From assembly GCA_003219465.1 (NCBI GenBank), contig QHOX01000121.1, forward strand, positions 1 to 33,153: a stretch of DNA of 33,153 nucleotides, in the 5' to 3' direction. The DNA is from Verrucomicrobiota bacterium (GTDB lineage: Bacteria; Verrucomicrobiota; Verrucomicrobiia; Chthoniobacterales; UBA10450). The position numbers were made by a program, and so were the translations under genes. This document shows, piece after piece, positions 4,167 through 26,486 of this stretch; position 1 is the stretch's first letter; the number at the start of each line of letters is the position of its first letter. The notes under the pieces were generated by a model that saw nothing but the letters and a program-made list of their open reading frames with translations, searched no databases and had not been told where the DNA came from.

Positions 4167-4994
4167 CTACCATTTCGACACAACCACTACGTGCGCCGCC
4201 ATTGGAACAACGAATTCGTTTCCTCGCGCATATTGTCTGATTCCGTTTTCAAGCGCGCTGCGAATCGCCTCCAATGTCTCTGGCGATTGCCGCGCCAGGA
4301 TGCCCGCGGTGCGAACGCCGGCGTTCCGTTCCGCTTCGAAAAGATAGCCCGCGTCTGGAAGCTTCCATTCAACTGTGCGCGTCTTATAGCTCATCGAAGT
4401 GCCGTCGAACCCGGCTCGTATGAGGACTTGCCGGCATTCCTCTGGTTCGCCGTACAAATATTTCGGCGGACCTTCGGGCAAGCCGACATCCAGATTCGCG
4501 TAAGCTTCAATCGTGTCGTTAACGATCTTCGCCCCGGGATTCCGCTCTGGTCCGGCCCAAACAGTAAAACCAAACTTGCCTCCCCGTTTCAAAACGCGGC
4601 ACACTTCGACGCATGCTTTTTCTGGATGTGAGACATGCAACAATCCGAAGTTCATAAGCACACGATCGAAACTGCCGTCTTCAAATGGCAGGTCCTGTGC
4701 GTCACCTTGCATGAATCGAATCTCCGGAAACATTCGCTTCGCAATCGCGACCATTTTGTCGGAGAAATCGATTCCCGTAGGAACCGCGCCCAATTTTTTC
4801 GCTGCGGCTGACACGTAGCCGGGGCCACAGGCGACATCCAAAGCCAACATTCCTGCCGAAACCATGGCGTCTGCCAAAAGCGAGGGAATAAATTGCCGCG
4901 TCAGCGACGACCACACGGAATCGTATTTGTCTGCCACGCGTTGCCAGCCTGCGTGTTCAAAGCGAGTGAAGTCGTCGCCTTGCATGTCCGACAT
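4167..4994 (-). CDS. class I SAM-dependent methyltransferase
   Basis: This 275-residue protein has the Rossmann-fold methyltransferase motifs in order: motif I LALDVACGPGYVS (about residues 50-62), the acidic motif II region PTGIDFSDKM, motif III FMQGDAQDLPFEDGSFDRV and the post-motif LKRGGKFGFTVWAG. This places it in the UbiE/methyltransferase-11 type, acting in the cytosol on an unknown small molecule. It lacks the Cys pattern expected of ArsM, so I do not link it to arsenic despite the arsS gene nearby. It lies 63 bases after the TPR-like gene in the same direction and may be cotranscribed. The start could be the first ATG or the one three codons later. Confidence 0.85.
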   Translation of the reverse strand: MSDMQGDDFTRFEHAGWQRVADKYDSVWSSLTRQFIPSLLADAMVSAGMLALDVACGPGYVSAAAKKLGAVPTGIDFSDKMVAIAKRMFPEIRFMQGDAQDLPFEDGSFDRVLMNFGLLHVSHPEKACVEVCRVLKRGGKFGFTVWAGPERNPGAKIVNDTIEAYANLDVGLPEGPPKYLYGEPEECRQVLIRAGFDGTSMSYKTRTVEWKLPDAGYLFEAERNAGVRTAGILARQSPETLEAIRSALENGIRQYARGNEFVVPMAAHVVVVSKW

Positions 4995-5558: not shown

Positions 5559-5575
5559 GGCTTCGCCCCGTGATT

Positions 5576-5599
5576 CGTTACATCGTTAAATCGTTACAT
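5576..5599. repeat. octamer tandem repeat
   Basis: Three adjacent 8-base units CGTTACAT, CGTTAAAT and CGTTACAT lie between the TPR-like gene and sdhB. The unit differs from the heptamers nearby but has the same short, AT-leaning, tandem style. Confidence 0.8.
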
Positions 5600-5693
5600 C
5601 GGCAAAGACAACCCGATTGAAACGCGCTCGGCTCCCCCCAGCGCGCCGCTACCCTCGTGGCTTTACCTTCTATCTCGCCGATCCCTTCAACTC

Positions 5694-5728
5694 GATTCAC
5701 GATTCTCAATTCACGATTCACGTTTCTT
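5694..5728. repeat. heptamer array at the sdhB 3' end
   Basis: Five consecutive 7-base units read GATTCAC, GATTCTC, AATTCAC, GATTCAC and GTTTCTT. The sdhB stop codon (5711-5713) lies within the array, so the last codons of sdhB (KKRES) are made of it. Related arrays occur at 6462-6496 in the opposite orientation and 6926-6960 in the same orientation. Confidence 0.85.
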
Positions 5729-6460
5729 CAGCCGTCGCCAGAACCATCCAAGCGGATCATAAAACTGATCCACCACGCGTTCCTTTAACGGAATGATTCC
5801 GTTGTCCGTGATTTGAATGCTTTCGGGACAAACCTTGGTGCAACACTTGGTGATATTGCAGTAACCGATGCCCTGCGCGTTCCGCAATTCCTCGATGCGA
5901 TCCTGCGTGTCGAGAGGATGCATCTCCAGCGCGGCCACATGAATTAAATAGCGCGGCCCGATAAATTTTTCGTGCATCCGGTGATCGCGCAGCACGTGGC
6001 AAACGTCCTGGCACAAAAAACATTCAATGCATTTCCGGAATTCCTGCACCCGATCGATGTCCTCCTGCTGCATTCGCCAGGTGCCGTCCGGCGTATCCGG
6101 CGGCCGCGGCTTGAACGGCTTGATTCTTTTCTTCACTCGAAAGTTCCATGAGACATCTGTCACCAAATCCTTGATCACCGGGAAGGCTTTCATTGGCTCG
6201 ATCGTCACTGGTTTTTCCAACGGCACTTCGCTCAGCCGCGTCATACACATGAGCTTGGGTATGCCATTTACTTCTGCCGAGCACGACCCGCACTTGCCAG
6301 CCTTACAGTTCCACCGACAGGCAAGATCCGGCGCCTGCGTCCGTTGAATGTCATGTACGGCGTCCAGGACCACCATGCCTTCCGTACATTCGGTAGCGTA
6401 ATCGCGAAATGCGCCGCCCTTCGCGTCACCGCGCCAGATTTTGAAAATAGCTGTTTTCAC
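5711..6460 (-). CDS. sdhB: succinate dehydrogenase/fumarate reductase iron-sulfur subunit
   Basis: This 249-residue subunit carries electrons from the flavin in SdhA to the quinone site. Cluster ligands are all visible: C52-x4-C57-x2-C60-x11-C72 for [2Fe-2S]; C144-x2-C147-x2-C150 with C211 for [4Fe-4S]; and C154, C201 and C207 for [3Fe-4S]. The spacing matches E. coli SdhB. The start is GTG at 6458-6460, which overlaps the stop of the four-helix-bundle gene as GTGA, implying translational coupling. The stop lies in a heptamer array. It is the last gene of the leftward sdh operon; length and gene order resemble mycobacterial Sdh1 (type F). Confidence 0.95.
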   Translation of the reverse strand: MKTAIFKIWRGDAKGGAFRDYATECTEGMVVLDAVHDIQRTQAPDLACRWNCKAGKCGSCSAEVNGIPKLMCMTRLSEVPLEKPVTIEPMKAFPVIKDLVTDVSWNFRVKKRIKPFKPRPPDTPDGTWRMQQEDIDRVQEFRKCIECFLCQDVCHVLRDHRMHEKFIGPRYLIHVAALEMHPLDTQDRIEELRNAQGIGYCNITKCCTKVCPESIQITDNGIIPLKERVVDQFYDPLGWFWRRLKKRES

Positions 6461-6960
6461 CGTGAATCGTAAAGTGAGAATCGTGAATCGTCGATGCGTT
6501 CATCGTACAGCGGCGAGTGTTCTCGAACCAATTTGCCGTTACCCGCGTTCTGTTGCCGCAAATAGCGTACGTAACCGTCAATTAACTGACGAACCCGCCA
6601 ACCGTCTTCTTTCAGAGAAGTGATCTGTTCAGCTGGGAGGTACTGCTCGTCTTCACAGACGTTCAAATCATCCATCAGCTCTTCGAGAGAGCCACGAGAG
6701 TGAAGCGTAAATTTGATTTGATCGAGGTAGTGATAACGACCGTGTCCCTCCGCGATGTTGTTAGTCAGTGAAACAGCAGCTCGCCGGATCTGGTTGGCCA
6801 ATCCAAATTTCTCGGTTTCCGGCAATTGCTTAGCGATTCGGTACATCGCCCTTCGGAATTTCCGAGCTGCTTGGTACACTTCCAGGTCCTCGAAAGTTGA
6901 AATTCGCTGATGGTGTTCACTGCCCGATTCACGATTCACGATTTTCGATTCTCCATTCAT
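6457..6960 (-). CDS. four-helix bundle protein (23S rRNA intervening-sequence protein family)
   Basis: This 167-residue protein has the core STFEDLEVYQAARKFRRAMY followed by FGLANQIRRAAVSLTNNIAEG and a long C-terminal helix. This is the S23/IVP four-helix-bundle family first seen inside intervening sequences of bacterial 23S rRNA genes; family members form small pentameric bundles of unknown role. Here it lies between sdhA and sdhB. The ATG at 6958-6960 follows GGTGA and lies four bases after the sdhA stop. Its stop overlaps the sdhB start. Its first codons (MNGESKIVNRES) and last codons (SRFSLYDSR) are encoded by heptamer arrays in opposite orientation (6926-6960 and 6462-6496), so the gene is bracketed by an imperfect inverted repeat like a small inserted cassette. 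Confidence 0.88.
   Translation of the reverse strand: MNGESKIVNRESGSEHHQRISTFEDLEVYQAARKFRRAMYRIAKQLPETEKFGLANQIRRAAVSLTNNIAEGHGRYHYLDQIKFTLHSRGSLEELMDDLNVCEDEQYLPAEQITSLKEDGWRVRQLIDGYVRYLRQQNAGNGKLVREHSPLYDERIDDSRFSLYDSR
6462..6496. repeat. heptamer array, left arm of the four-helix-bundle cassette
   Basis: Five consecutive 7-base units read GTGAATC, GTAAAGT, GAGAATC, GTGAATC and GTCGATG. They are the reverse complement in style of the array at 6926-6960, so the two form an imperfect inverted repeat about 430 bases apart. They encode the C-terminus of the four-helix-bundle protein. Confidence 0.85.
6926..6960. repeat. heptamer array, right arm of the four-helix-bundle cassette
   Basis: Five consecutive 7-base units read GATTCAC, GATTCAC, GATTTTC, GATTCTC and CATTCAT. 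The array ends exactly at the start codon of the four-helix-bundle gene, whose first codons it encodes. It is inverted relative to 6462-6496. Confidence 0.85.
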
Positions 6961-6964
6961 GGTG

Positions 6965-8776
6965 TCACCGATTTTCTTCAATAATTCGCTTCAAATAATC
7001 GGGCATCTGCGGCAATGGCTCCAGTCGGATTCGCATCGATCCGTCACCGGCTTTTGAAATGATCGTGTTTACGCTGCCAAAACGCTCGTCCTTGTCGGGA
7101 TAGTCTTCACGAAACTGCGCGCCGCGGCTTTCTTTGCGTTCCAGCGCGGCACGCGTAATCGCTTCCGAGACTATCAGCAGATTCTTCAAGTCGAGGGTGG
7201 TGTGCCAACCGGGATTGTATTCGCGGTTGCCGGTGACCGCCGCGTTATCGGCGCGCGTTTTGAACTGGCCGATATTCTTCAACGCTTCGCGCATTTCGGT
7301 TTCGTTGCGAACAATTCCAACCAAATCCTGCATCGTCTGCTGCAACTCTTTCTGAATCGCATAAGGATTCTCACTATCGGTACGCTCGAACGGTGTCAGC
7401 GCTTCGCGCGCAGTGACGTCGATCTGGTCTGGGTCGATCCTGCCGTGCTGATTTTCCTTCGCGAATTTTGCTGCGAATTCGCCGGCGCGTTTGCCGAATA
7501 CCAAAAGATCAGAGAGCGAATTGCCGCCGAGGCGATTCGCGCCATTGATTCCCGCGGCGCATTCGCCGGCAGCAAACAGCCCCAGCAAGCGCGACATTTG
7601 CGTGTCAGGATCGACGCGTATGCCACCCATGATGTAATGCGTCGTCGGTCCCACTTCCATTGGTTGCTCGGTGATATCGATGTCGGCAAGTTGTTTAAAT
7701 TGGTGATACATGCTCGGCAGCTTGCGTTTGATGTGTTCTGCTGCATTTGGGATTTTCGATTTGATCCAGGCGATATCGAGGAACACGCCGCCGTGCGGGC
7801 TTCCCCTGTCTTCCTTGATCTCGCGCACGATGCAACGCGAGACGTGATCGCGCGTCAGTAATTCTGGCGGGCGGCGCGCGTCTTTATGTCCCTGGCAATA
7901 GCGCCAGCCTTCCTCCTCGTTGTCCGCGGTCTGATGTCGATAATTTTCCGGGATCGACTCGAACATGAAACGTTTGCCCTCTTTGTTGGTCAAAATGCCG
8001 CCCTCGCCTCGCACACCCTCCGTGACCAGGATTCCCATCACGCTCGGTGGCCATACCATGCCAGTGGGATGAAACTGAACGAACTCCATGTCGATGAGTT
8101 CAGCGCCCGCCTCATATGCGAGCGCGTGTCCATCTCCAGTATATTCCCAGCTGTTGCTTGTGATTTTGTAGGCGCGACCGATCCCACCGGTGGCCAGCAC
8201 GACTGCTTTCGCCCGAAAGATTTTGAAACGGCCTCGCTCGCGTTCATAACCAAACGCGCCAACCACGCGTTCTCCGTTCTTTAACAACGAAAGAATCGTG
8301 TGCTCCATGTGGACATCGATTCCCTGGTGCACGCCGTGATCCTGCAATGTGCGGATCATTTCCAGTCCGGTGCGATCGCCCACGTGCGCGAGCCGCGGGT
8401 ATTTGTGGCCGCCGAAATGTCTTTGCAGAATTCGGCCGTCTTTTGTCCGGTCAAAAACGGCGCCCCAAGCTTCGAGTTCGCGCACTCGATCGGGCGCTTC
8501 CTTCGCGTGCAATTCAGCCATGCGCCATTGGTTCACATATTGCCCGCCGCGCATGGTATCGGCGAAGTGCACCTTCCAATTATCGCGTTCATCGACGTTG
8601 GCCAGCGCGGCTGCGATTCCGCCCTCCGCCATTACAGTGTGCGCTTTGCCCAGAAGCGATTTGCAGACCAGTCCAACACGAACGCCCGCAACCGACGCTT
8701 CAATTGCCGCCCGCAAACCTGCGCCGCCCGCGCCGATTACAAGAACATCGTGCTCGAAAGTGTCGTAGTCCGGCAT
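6965..8776 (-). CDS. sdhA: succinate dehydrogenase/fumarate reductase flavoprotein subunit
   Basis: This 603-residue flavoprotein oxidises succinate to fumarate, or the reverse. It has the N-terminal FAD dinucleotide motif VLVIGAGGAGLRAAIEA (residues 11-27) and H46 in KAHTVMAEGG, the position of the covalent FAD link. Catalytic-site motifs EFVQFHPTG and VTEGVRGEGG follow, then HYIMGGIRVD and GLFAAGECAAGINGANRLGG, and the C-terminal domain NPGWHTTLDLKNLL. It follows the membrane subunit gene by 21 bases and precedes the four-helix-bundle gene by four bases, so it is operonic. The order membrane subunit-flavoprotein-iron-sulfur subunit matches mycobacterial sdh1, apart from the inserted gene. 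Confidence 0.97.
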   Translation of the reverse strand: MPDYDTFEHDVLVIGAGGAGLRAAIEASVAGVRVGLVCKSLLGKAHTVMAEGGIAAALANVDERDNWKVHFADTMRGGQYVNQWRMAELHAKEAPDRVRELEAWGAVFDRTKDGRILQRHFGGHKYPRLAHVGDRTGLEMIRTLQDHGVHQGIDVHMEHTILSLLKNGERVVGAFGYERERGRFKIFRAKAVVLATGGIGRAYKITSNSWEYTGDGHALAYEAGAELIDMEFVQFHPTGMVWPPSVMGILVTEGVRGEGGILTNKEGKRFMFESIPENYRHQTADNEEEGWRYCQGHKDARRPPELLTRDHVSRCIVREIKEDRGSPHGGVFLDIAWIKSKIPNAAEHIKRKLPSMYHQFKQLADIDITEQPMEVGPTTHYIMGGIRVDPDTQMSRLLGLFAAGECAAGINGANRLGGNSLSDLLVFGKRAGEFAAKFAKENQHGRIDPDQIDVTAREALTPFERTDSENPYAIQKELQQTMQDLVGIVRNETEMREALKNIGQFKTRADNAAVTGNREYNPGWHTTLDLKNLLIVSEAITRAALERKESRGAQFREDYPDKDERFGSVNTIISKAGDGSMRIRLEPLPQMPDYLKRIIEENR

Positions 8777-18819: not shown

Positions 18820-18885
18820 CGCTGAGGACAGCGCACGCTACAGGACGCGCATGGGAGAAAGTTGTAGCGTCCGCTGTCCTCAGCG
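18820..18885. repeat. REPIN-like inverted pair (family B, copy 1)
   Basis: Arm 18820-18842 (CGCTGAGGACAGCG, then CACGCTACA) is repeated inverted at 18863-18885 with one mismatch in 23. Each arm also folds by itself: GCGCTG-AGGA-CAGCGC on the left, CCGCTG-TCCT-CAGCGG on the right. The right arm contains the trmD stop codon (18880-18882). A second copy lies at 19976-20051. Confidence 0.85.
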
Positions 18886-19560
18886 GAGTAAGTCCGGGCG
18901 GTTCTCGCGTGTCCGTTTGATTGCCTGGTCTTTACGCCACTTCGCGATTTCCGCGTGATTCCCGGAGAGCAAAACTTCCGGAACTTTCCAGCCGCGGAAC
19001 TCAGCGGGCCGCGTGTACTGCGGCGCTTCCAAGAGCCCGTTGCTGAAGCTATCATCAGCGGCCGATTGCTCATCGCCCAGCGCCCCGGGAAGCAAACGAA
19101 CGATTGCATCAACAAGAACTGCCGCAGCAATCGCGCCGTTAGTAAGCACATAATCGCCGATCGAAATCTCAAGATCGATCAGATGTTCGATCACGCGGTG
19201 ATCGACTCCTTCGTAATGGCCGGAAATGATGATCAGATGCGGTTCCCCGGATAGCTCTCGCGCCATTTGTTGATCGAACGTCCGGCCTGCAGGCGACATC
19301 AGGACGGTTTTCGGTTTTCGGTTTTCGGTTTTCGATTTCAGCTCCTCCACCGCTGAAAAAATTGCTTCCGGTTTCATCACCATCCCCTGCCCTCCGCCAA
19401 AAGGCGCGTCATCGACCACGTGATGTTTGTCGGTCGTCCAGTCGCGCAGATTGTGAATGTGCAGGCCAACGATTTTCTTCTCTTGAGCCCGCTTCATCAT
19501 GCTTTCGCCAAGCGGCGCGCGGCAGACTTCAGGAAACAACGTGAGGATGTCGATTCTCAT
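18880..19560 (-). CDS. trmD: tRNA (guanine37-N1)-methyltransferase
   Basis: This 226-residue SPOUT methyltransferase modifies G37 of tRNAs to prevent frameshifting. Family motifs are [12 protein letters not shown] at the start, [13 protein letters not shown], the SAM knot [38 protein letters not shown] and [22 protein letters not shown]. The start at 19558-19560 matches the family N-terminus; nine further codons upstream are made of heptamer repeat. The variable loop [17 protein letters not shown] is encoded by tandem CGAAAAC heptamers (19305-19339). The stop lies in a REPIN-like arm. It is the last gene of the ffh-rpsP-khpA group; rimM, often between, is absent. Confidence 0.95.
19305..19339. 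repeat. heptamer array inside trmD
   Basis: Four perfect copies of CGGTTTT and one degenerate copy (CGATTTC) lie in tandem within the trmD coding region, encoding [11 protein letters not shown] on the other strand. Confidence 0.95.
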
Positions 19561-19565
19561 TTGGA

Positions 19566-19600
19566 AGAAACGTCGAACGCCGAACATCCAACGTCCAACG
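19566..19600. repeat. heptamer array just upstream of trmD
   Basis: Five 7-base units read AGAAACG, TCGAACG, CCGAACA, TCCAACG and TCCAACG. They end six bases before the trmD start on its 5' side and replace any recognisable ribosome site. Confidence 0.75.
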
Positions 19601-26369: not shown

Positions 26370-26414
26370 TGCTCACTTTAAACATGCAGTCGGGTGCAAG
26401 ACTAGTGCAGTATC

Positions 26415-26486
26415 GTAATCGTAATCGTGCTCCTGCTCCTGCTCGTGATCGAATCACGAACGTACATTCTCGATTAGGAGCATGAG
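26415..26486. repeat. hexamer array with internal palindrome
   Basis: Six-base units GTAATC, GTAATC, GTGCTC, CTGCTC, CTGCTC and GTGATC run in tandem from 26415 to 26450. The last overlaps the palindrome CGTGAT-CGA-ATCACG (26444-26458). A degraded inverse of the array follows (CGATTAGGAGCATGAGCATG). It lies between the lipoprotein and acyltransferase genes. Confidence 0.75.

Follow-up and report, generated by a model that had tools for sequence, protein, structure and literature searches.

A mobile element of the intervening-sequence (IVS) type, consisting of an IVP gene and inverted arms that would pair in the mRNA, would probably be cut there by RNase III and would be bound by the IVP protein, is a reasonably probable explanation for a gene cassette that lies between sdhA and sdhB in the window, i.e., the whole stretch of 33,153 nucleotides of Verrucomicrobiota DNA, from a soil-dwelling bacterium, analyzed here. 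Elements of this anatomy recur across many genomes, their two arms co-evolve and copies of them have changed place in the past. The locus in the window is made up of the following features:

6457–6960, minus strand: IVP gene (four-helix-bundle protein, PF05635/TIGR02436), read from the ATG at 6960 and identified by profile matches
6965–8776, minus strand: sdhA, succinate dehydrogenase/fumarate reductase flavoprotein, the upstream host gene (NF005866, 985 bits)
5711–6460, minus strand: sdhB, iron-sulfur subunit, the downstream host gene (NF009052, 414 bits), with a GTGA overlap with the IVP stop
6925–6959, minus strand: 5' arm (named in mRNA sense), a run of roughly five degenerate heptamers (Tandem Repeats Finder [TRF], inverted repeat, fold)
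6461–6496, minus strand: 3' arm, heptamers in inverted orientation with respect to the 5' arm, reaching as far as the sdhB start (TRF, inverted repeat, fold; TRF covers 6461–6491, and 6492–6496 comes solely from the unit count of an earlier note on this DNA)
5693–5726, minus strand: third array of heptamers, at the 3' end of sdhB, oriented like the 5' arm (TRF)
5575–5601, no strand assigned: octamer array (TCGTTACA) 3' of sdhB (TRF)

The period-7 arrays delineated by TRF comprise 5.0 copies at 6925–6959 (82% matches), 4.4 copies at 6461–6491 (66% matches) and 4.9 copies at 5693–5726 (81% matches). Complementarity reaches 85% over 27 nt between 6464–6490 and 6925–6951, and 93% over 30 nt between 5693–5722 and 6461–6490; the heptamer arrays and the inverted repeat that the earlier note had placed at the ends of the gene are thus recovered by TRF and by complementarity alike. 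The coordinates agree with the coupled junctions it had described: the sdhA stop (6965–6967) is followed after a four-base gap by the IVP ATG (6958–6960), and the IVP stop TGA (6457–6459) overlaps the sdhB start GTG (6458–6460). Its statement that the arrays bound the gene holds in so far as the inverted arrays are real, but both lie inside the IVP ORF, where translation would put them at the N- and C-terminus of the protein; the core domain lies at about 6580–6891, and the start of the ORF at TTG 6981 is a mechanical call. On the 300-nt flank test applied to other loci below, the window's own locus has a lag-7 score of 17.0 for the upstream array and of just 7.0 for the downstream one. Stem-forming terminal inverted repeats around an ORF, as in the 23S IVSs, are present in the window by complementarity and predicted fold. 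The location in an rRNA gene is not: the IVP gene sits between sdhA and sdhB, and the window holds no rRNA matches at Rfam gathering scores.

The product matches PF05635 (E 7.6e-29; 100.5 bits versus a cut-off of 33.8; model positions 1–104 of 106) and TIGR02436 (E 1.1e-25; 90 versus 24 bits), in both cases above the curated cut-offs, as expected from its earlier placement in the 23S IVP family, and its closest named matches are from Verrucomicrobia and Chthoniobacterales MAGs. Foldseek aligns its AlphaFold2 model (mean pLDDT 89.4) with 2gsc at a TMt of 0.92–0.94 and with the Avd structure 4dwl at 0.83–0.88. The former is the S23p of X. campestris, described in the part of the source drawn on here as a homopentamer of four-helix bundles (PMC4990558). 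The likeness to Avd, along with a weak DivGenRetAVD match below the cut-off (E 1.6e-4), might be taken to mean that the element is a remnant of a diversity-generating retroelement (DGR), with IVP as an accessory protein of the Avd type and a reverse transcriptase as the mover. This is very improbable: the fold is common to both proteins, but reverse transcriptases are rare in IVP-bearing genomes, with RVT_1 found in 10 of the 61 genomes of the window's family and PF05635 in 59 of them (364 matches in total), and the counts of the two are uncorrelated. On these grounds a reverse transcriptase is probably not the mover, and the reverse transcriptase that a DGR would have is not found as such, the window's genome having one partial RVT_1 match.

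The genome search for array-flanked IVP genes proposed in the earlier note shows inverted flanks to be widespread. The family test set comprises 117 sites, about a third of the 364 matches taken best-scoring first, and hence leans to high scores. Complementarity of the inverted flanks scores at least 12 at 89 of 116 sites versus 7 of 950 background placements, which are mostly coding DNA, and at least 15 at 62 of 116 versus 0 of 950; direct-orientation flanks score at least 12 at 4 of 116 sites and flanks of different loci in 4.4% of cases. Such an inverted flank score (at least 12) is missing at 27 of the 116. Lag-7 arrays (score at least 12, as for all lags given here) are seen within 300 nt upstream at 29 of 115 sites and downstream at 30 of 116, and in 12 of 1306 background windows of 300 nt, mostly coding DNA not matched for intergenic position; this question of background matching is partly answered by the Y1 flanks and in-gene controls below. 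The corresponding counts are 10 of 115, 12 of 116 and 0 for lag 8, 6, 10 and 7 for lag 6, and 4, 4 and 5 for lag 12, and the family flanks hold no arrays at lags 4, 5, 10 and 13 and one at most at lags 9 and 11. Where both flanks bear an array, the period is common to them in 98 of 106 cases (family 54/58, other phylum 17/17, named 27/31, the family and named sets overlapping in part). Among arrays scoring at least 12, the best period is 7 at 47 family, 15 other phylum and 28 named sites, 8 at 16, 6 and 15, and 6 at 9, 1 and 0, respectively, with a median array length of 4.4–4.8 units. The repeat sequence itself varies from locus to locus and matches within a locus, without a fixed terminal sequence. 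Thus, of the proposal that heptamer arrays serve as cassette ends, the part that stands is that arrays bound IVP genes elsewhere too, but their sequence varies and some loci have octamers instead.

Beyond the family, PF05635 is found in 100 of 145 genomes elsewhere in the phylum, two from the window's own family among them, and 22 of 31 sites there have inverted flanks of at least 12 (2 of 33 matches had too short a flank). The same threshold is passed at 16 of 20 loci of named Verrucomicrobia (L197–L216) and at 35 of 49 sites of the remaining named set (L217–L265), which is mostly from other phyla with a few Verrucomicrobia and includes Nostoc, Planctomycetes, Calidithermus, Ignavibacteria and archaea; the named loci were scored with a 250-nt downstream stretch and have no background of their own. 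One of them, L265, is an IVP gene within a Paceibacterota (CPR) 16S rRNA gene, and heptamer-like arms in inverted order lie in that rRNA. At L172, L227, L230, L249 and L250, from several phyla, the IVP-adjoining heptamer arrays are very long, at roughly 90–150 nt.

Arrays that lack an IVP gene outnumber the array pairs that bracket one. In a converse test, from array pair to IVP, part of the DNA was known beforehand to contain IVP genes (the window, L163), which biases its two gene-sized IVP pairs. Lag-7 arrays number 13 (family) and 12 per 400 kb in two IVP-bearing genome sets versus 2 in seven IVP-less genomes, and because of this scarcity many of the arrays that stand alone may be remnants of IVP elements. 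The density of 13 per 400 kb in the family background, and the window's own arrays within the ORF at 18880–19587 and 3' of sdhB, could also suggest a chance meeting, with heptamer arrays abundant in such genomes and IVP genes falling among them by accident. Such an account is hardly credible in the face of the excess of inverted flanks over both background placements and direct flanks, and of arms that match within a locus and have a common period. As to the window's other arrays, a clean heptamer array (CGGTTTT, 96% matches) at 19305–19338 lies within the ORF at 18880–19587, which we take to be trmD, with KTENRKPK-like translated repeats and no IVP near; a second heptamer array (AACGTCC type) occupies 19569–19600, where that ORF begins; and positions 26411–26452 hold one array of hexamers of two types, first ATCGTA and then TGCTCC.

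The two arms of an element vary in step at orthologous sites. With arm matching scored as ungapped Watson-Crick complementarity, 17 sdh loci, including one pair with an identical gene start (L100, L102), give 16.1 for a locus's own arms versus 11.2 for arms crossed between loci (14/17 loci, p = 1.4e-4; in-gene control p = 0.90). The same holds for 10 sdhA2-sdhB2 loci (18.4 versus 15.4, p = 0.0098; in-gene control p = 0.66), nine of which adjoin an sdhB-paralog match and one of which, L039, was placed by flank resemblance alone, and for 8 loci at the moxR-DUF58 site (19.2 versus 13.0, p = 0.0039; in-gene control p = 0.91). At metK-ahcY, a small set of 3 loci, the values are 14.3 and 13.8. The names moxR, DUF58, sdhA2 and nuoI are our reading of the flanking sequence, and the identity of metK and ahcY was confirmed at L075 only. 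A duplex-energy version of the test is weaker (sdh p = 0.002, sdhA2 p = 0.15, moxR-DUF58 p = 0.012); RNAduplex energies on long flanks proved a noisy measure of co-evolution, and ungapped matching was used instead. The change is visible in the units themselves: among sdhA-sdhB relatives, some loci have heptamers (AATCGTG) and others octamers (TGAAGCGT), alike on both sides.

The presence or absence of the gene at related sdh loci, a check put forward in the earlier note, was followed across a set of 30 sdhB loci retrieved from genomes of the family. IVP lies between sdhA and sdhB in 11 of them, the other junctions being empty or otherwise filled, and the pattern that had been named as adverse, with the gene always in place and no heptamers, is absent. 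The sdhA-sdhB gap is almost nil in L009, L012, L015 and L027; L016 and L018 have an ORF of about 0.8 kb of no assigned family there; L017 has heptamers without an IVP gene; and the sequence of L010 stops before the junction. Other hairpin-like, palindromic-looking insertions are seen by eye in L011, L024, L030, L033 and L034, and since relatives hold such insertions there, the junction seems able to accommodate hairpin elements generally. Distances among IVP and among SdhB proteins at the main sdh site are uncorrelated (Mantel r 0.11, 404/2000, n = 16), which suggests replacement of elements, or noise. In ten further places an IVP gene also sits immediately upstream of a second sdhB, a distant one (about 30% identity), the two sdh operons being non-orthologous (G031:C82, G014:C115, G048:C302, G059:C200, G016:C91, G050:C35, G039:C41, G017:C221, G052:C220 and G038:C247).

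The further suggestion that sdhB might be a second bracketed gene is weakly supported at best and was set aside, as an array 3' of sdhB matching the 3' IVP arm (score at least 12) is not conserved, being found at 2 of the 11 IVP-bearing loci (L007, L019) and also at the named locus L199. What does occur 3' of sdhB is an octamer array (lag-8 score at least 11), at 9 of 11 IVP-bearing versus 3 of 19 other loci, the window counted (Fisher p = 0.0012, kinship ignored). These octamer arrays (L007–L036; 5575–5601 in the window) seldom match the IVP arms; some link between them and IVP remains.

The clearest change of place concerns the nuo operon. The element of L337 (G030) lies between nuoB and nuoC, and those of L336 (G054) and L338 (G023) lie between nuoD and nuoI; including the arms they are 84–86% identical over 560–564 nt, and the sequence past the arms differs. 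The nuoB-nuoC junctions of L336 and L338 are occupied by another hairpin element; the L337 contig stops within nuoD, its nuoD-nuoI junction falling beyond the end. Likewise, L138, L139 and L140 hold one element (77–84%) at three places with non-homologous flanking proteins, and homology ends near the arrays. In both cases, as in a transposable unit, one element is found at non-homologous sites with its ends at the arrays. More broadly, among 338 homologous element pairs, which are non-independent and were limited to those having flanking ORFs at all sides, the flanking proteins are homologous on both sides in 198, on one side in 6 and on neither in 134; from this split, copies can be said to be often held long and sometimes moved. 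The blastn pieces between elements tend to stop at the fast-changing arms, and in junctions viewed by eye, whose flanks are strongly diverged, no constant target-site duplication is seen. No recent copies are seen within a genome, the best within-genome pair at different places reaching 74% (L067/L069). The earlier proposal of a mobile IVS-like cassette that lands in protein operons is therefore upheld by the patchy presence at sdhA-sdhB and by the arrays at other IVP genes, and its mobility by the one element at two nuo junctions. The named locus L212 has an IVP gene at nuoB-nuoC and none at nuoD-nuoI, where about 4509–4610 resembles, on visual inspection, an IVP-free hairpin built from inverted heptamer arrays; inverted heptamer-array hairpins without IVP, like gene-less forms of the element, are also seen in L158 (13179–13285), L291 (6346–6421) and L157 (14873–15013).

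The orientation of IVP genes is biased. They are co-directional with both neighbors at 103 of 144 sites versus 37% of 464 background triples, and the neighbors checked are ordinary operon genes (nuo subunits, metK-ahcY, HlyD-ABC, HlyD-AcrB and 2-oxoacid dehydrogenase E2). The sense bias and the operon neighbors fit an element living in RNA. The same sense orientation would also be in keeping with an operon gene that has been domesticated along with a regulatory hairpin and is kept vertically, that sets the ratio of sdhA to sdhB expression by stem stability and for which mobility is a relic; several genomes each have a syntenic IVP gene at sdhA2-sdhB2, the moxR-DUF58 site and metK-ahcY, arm matching is maintained at syntenic sites, and both flanks are common to the majority class of homologous pairs just given. 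Such domestication is rather unlikely, given the patchiness at sdhA-sdhB, where close relatives have tight junctions with nothing inserted, the occurrence of one element at different nuo junctions and the many unrelated host operons.

A different reading would put the process at the level of DNA: the arms would be terminal inverted repeats belonging to a transposon that is mobilized in trans, and would be kept matched by gene conversion or by slippage in a hairpin of the DNA, with RNA uninvolved. Arms that match unit by unit (e.g., in L093), the gene-less arm hairpins of L158, L291, L157 and, by eye, L212, and Y1 transposase counts that track IVP counts (rho 0.59, partial 0.52) would all accord with it. 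Most of the Y1 transposase genes at L306–L317 and L326 lie between GC-rich inverted hairpins and are REP/RAYT-like. Among the 19 of 30 fetched Y1 loci that were scored, inverted flanks of at least 12 occur in 14, with somewhat longer flanks and GC-rich hairpins, and a lag-7 array (score at least 12) in none, so that the ends common to IVP and a REP/RAYT system are not found. Because 14 of 19 Y1 loci are inverted as well, the hallmark of IVP elements is the repeat period and not inverted flanks as such. REP/RAYT-like loci thus resemble IVP elements in having inverted ends around a small protein gene, in genomes that also hold IVP, and differ in their Y1 transposase, their GC-rich hairpins and their want of heptamer arrays; Y1 was rejected as the mover as the ends differ despite the correlated counts. 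Transposon ends do not normally vary in sequence between loci as IVP arms do, and this variation, the other hairpins borne by Y1 genes and a sense-strand bias unexpected for a pure DNA element make the DNA-level reading unlikely. Neither Y1 nor RVT_1, the transposase and reverse transcriptase looked at, is tied to the IVP element.

The IVS-type element favored here can be pictured as follows. An element of about 0.5 kb, i.e., an IVP gene and two tandem-repeat arms, would insert sense-wise between the sdhA stop and the sdhB start and would presumably be co-transcribed with the operon. The arms would then pair in the mRNA to form a stem with the IVP gene in its loop; RNase III would probably cut this stem, by analogy with the 23S IVS, freeing the IVP segment and splitting off sdhA and sdhB as messages of their own. 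Such a cut could be tolerated as it would fall between cistrons, just as in rRNA it falls in dispensable loops, and the divided operon message would be the equivalent of a fragmented rRNA. A probable role for the pentameric IVP protein is to bind the arms, of about 4–5 units each, and to promote persistence or movement of the element; from the 4–5 units and the five subunits it may be conjectured that one subunit reads one repeat unit. In predicted folds the 5' and 3' window arms pair in both the MFE and centroid structures, and the sdh segment has an MFE of -168.7 kcal/mol (z -2.37, with 2 of 100 shuffles equally good). Confidence in this explanation is slightly lowered because most of the scored Y1 loci pass the inverted-flank test and the octamers 3' of sdhB lack an explanation. 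A broader and more tentative view, to which we would give somewhat less than an even chance, is that the IVP genes of bacteria and archaea alike form one minimal mobile-element class, with the rRNA IVSs as its rRNA-inserted branch and the pentamer reading drifting but matched arms of 4–5 units of 7–8 nt; each element would then bear a private end code, its arms being copied or selected to stay matched as their sequence drifts.

Several known systems bear on this picture. In the parts of PMC4990558 drawn on here, the 23S IVS of Coxiella burnetii, of 428–444 nt, has a terminal stem and an RNase III cut, with tandem heptamers (GACAGAT) just upstream of the S23p ORF. As in the window, an S23p-family ORF lies in the loop of a stem formed from terminal inverted repeats; the host in Coxiella is an rRNA hairpin and in the window an intercistronic junction of a protein operon, where both arms are repeat arrays and the RNase III cut is a proposal. 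CPR bacteria have IVP-bearing insertions in 16S and 23S genes according to the main text of PMC11270868, which makes no mention of "inverted", "heptamer" or "tandem"; these share the IVP family with the window, L265 has inverted heptamer-like arms also, and the host is again rRNA. In Geobacter metallireducens, tandem hepta- and octanucleotide arrays paired on opposite strands, as here, one pair of them between proB and proA, were termed "global regulator binding sites" and read as possible IHF/HU sites (PMC2700814, whose main text makes no mention of "23S" or "four-helix"). In Xanthomonas, GGGAATC heptamer repeats, with 70 convergent close pairs in Xcc, were studied as G-quadruplex repeats (PMC4692102, whose main text makes no mention of "23S", "helix bundle" or "intervening"); Xcc is also the source of the IVP structure 2gsc. 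A search of the literature, bioRxiv and most subscription journals excepted, found no published link between IVP and heptamer arms beyond the Coxiella heptamers. Since no paper was found linking IVP genes to arrays, the find is filed as an element that resembles an IVS but is located outside rRNA and has repeat arrays for arms.

The function and origin of rRNA IVSs were called unclear over 25 years after their discovery, in the part of the source drawn on here (PMC4990558). The pattern described above gives this problem a concrete unit, with visible ends, a moved copy and arms that match while their sequence changes. It also offers, from the few genomes compared, an origin for some unexplained bacterial heptamer arrays, and the old puzzle of the IVP genes thereby becomes testable.
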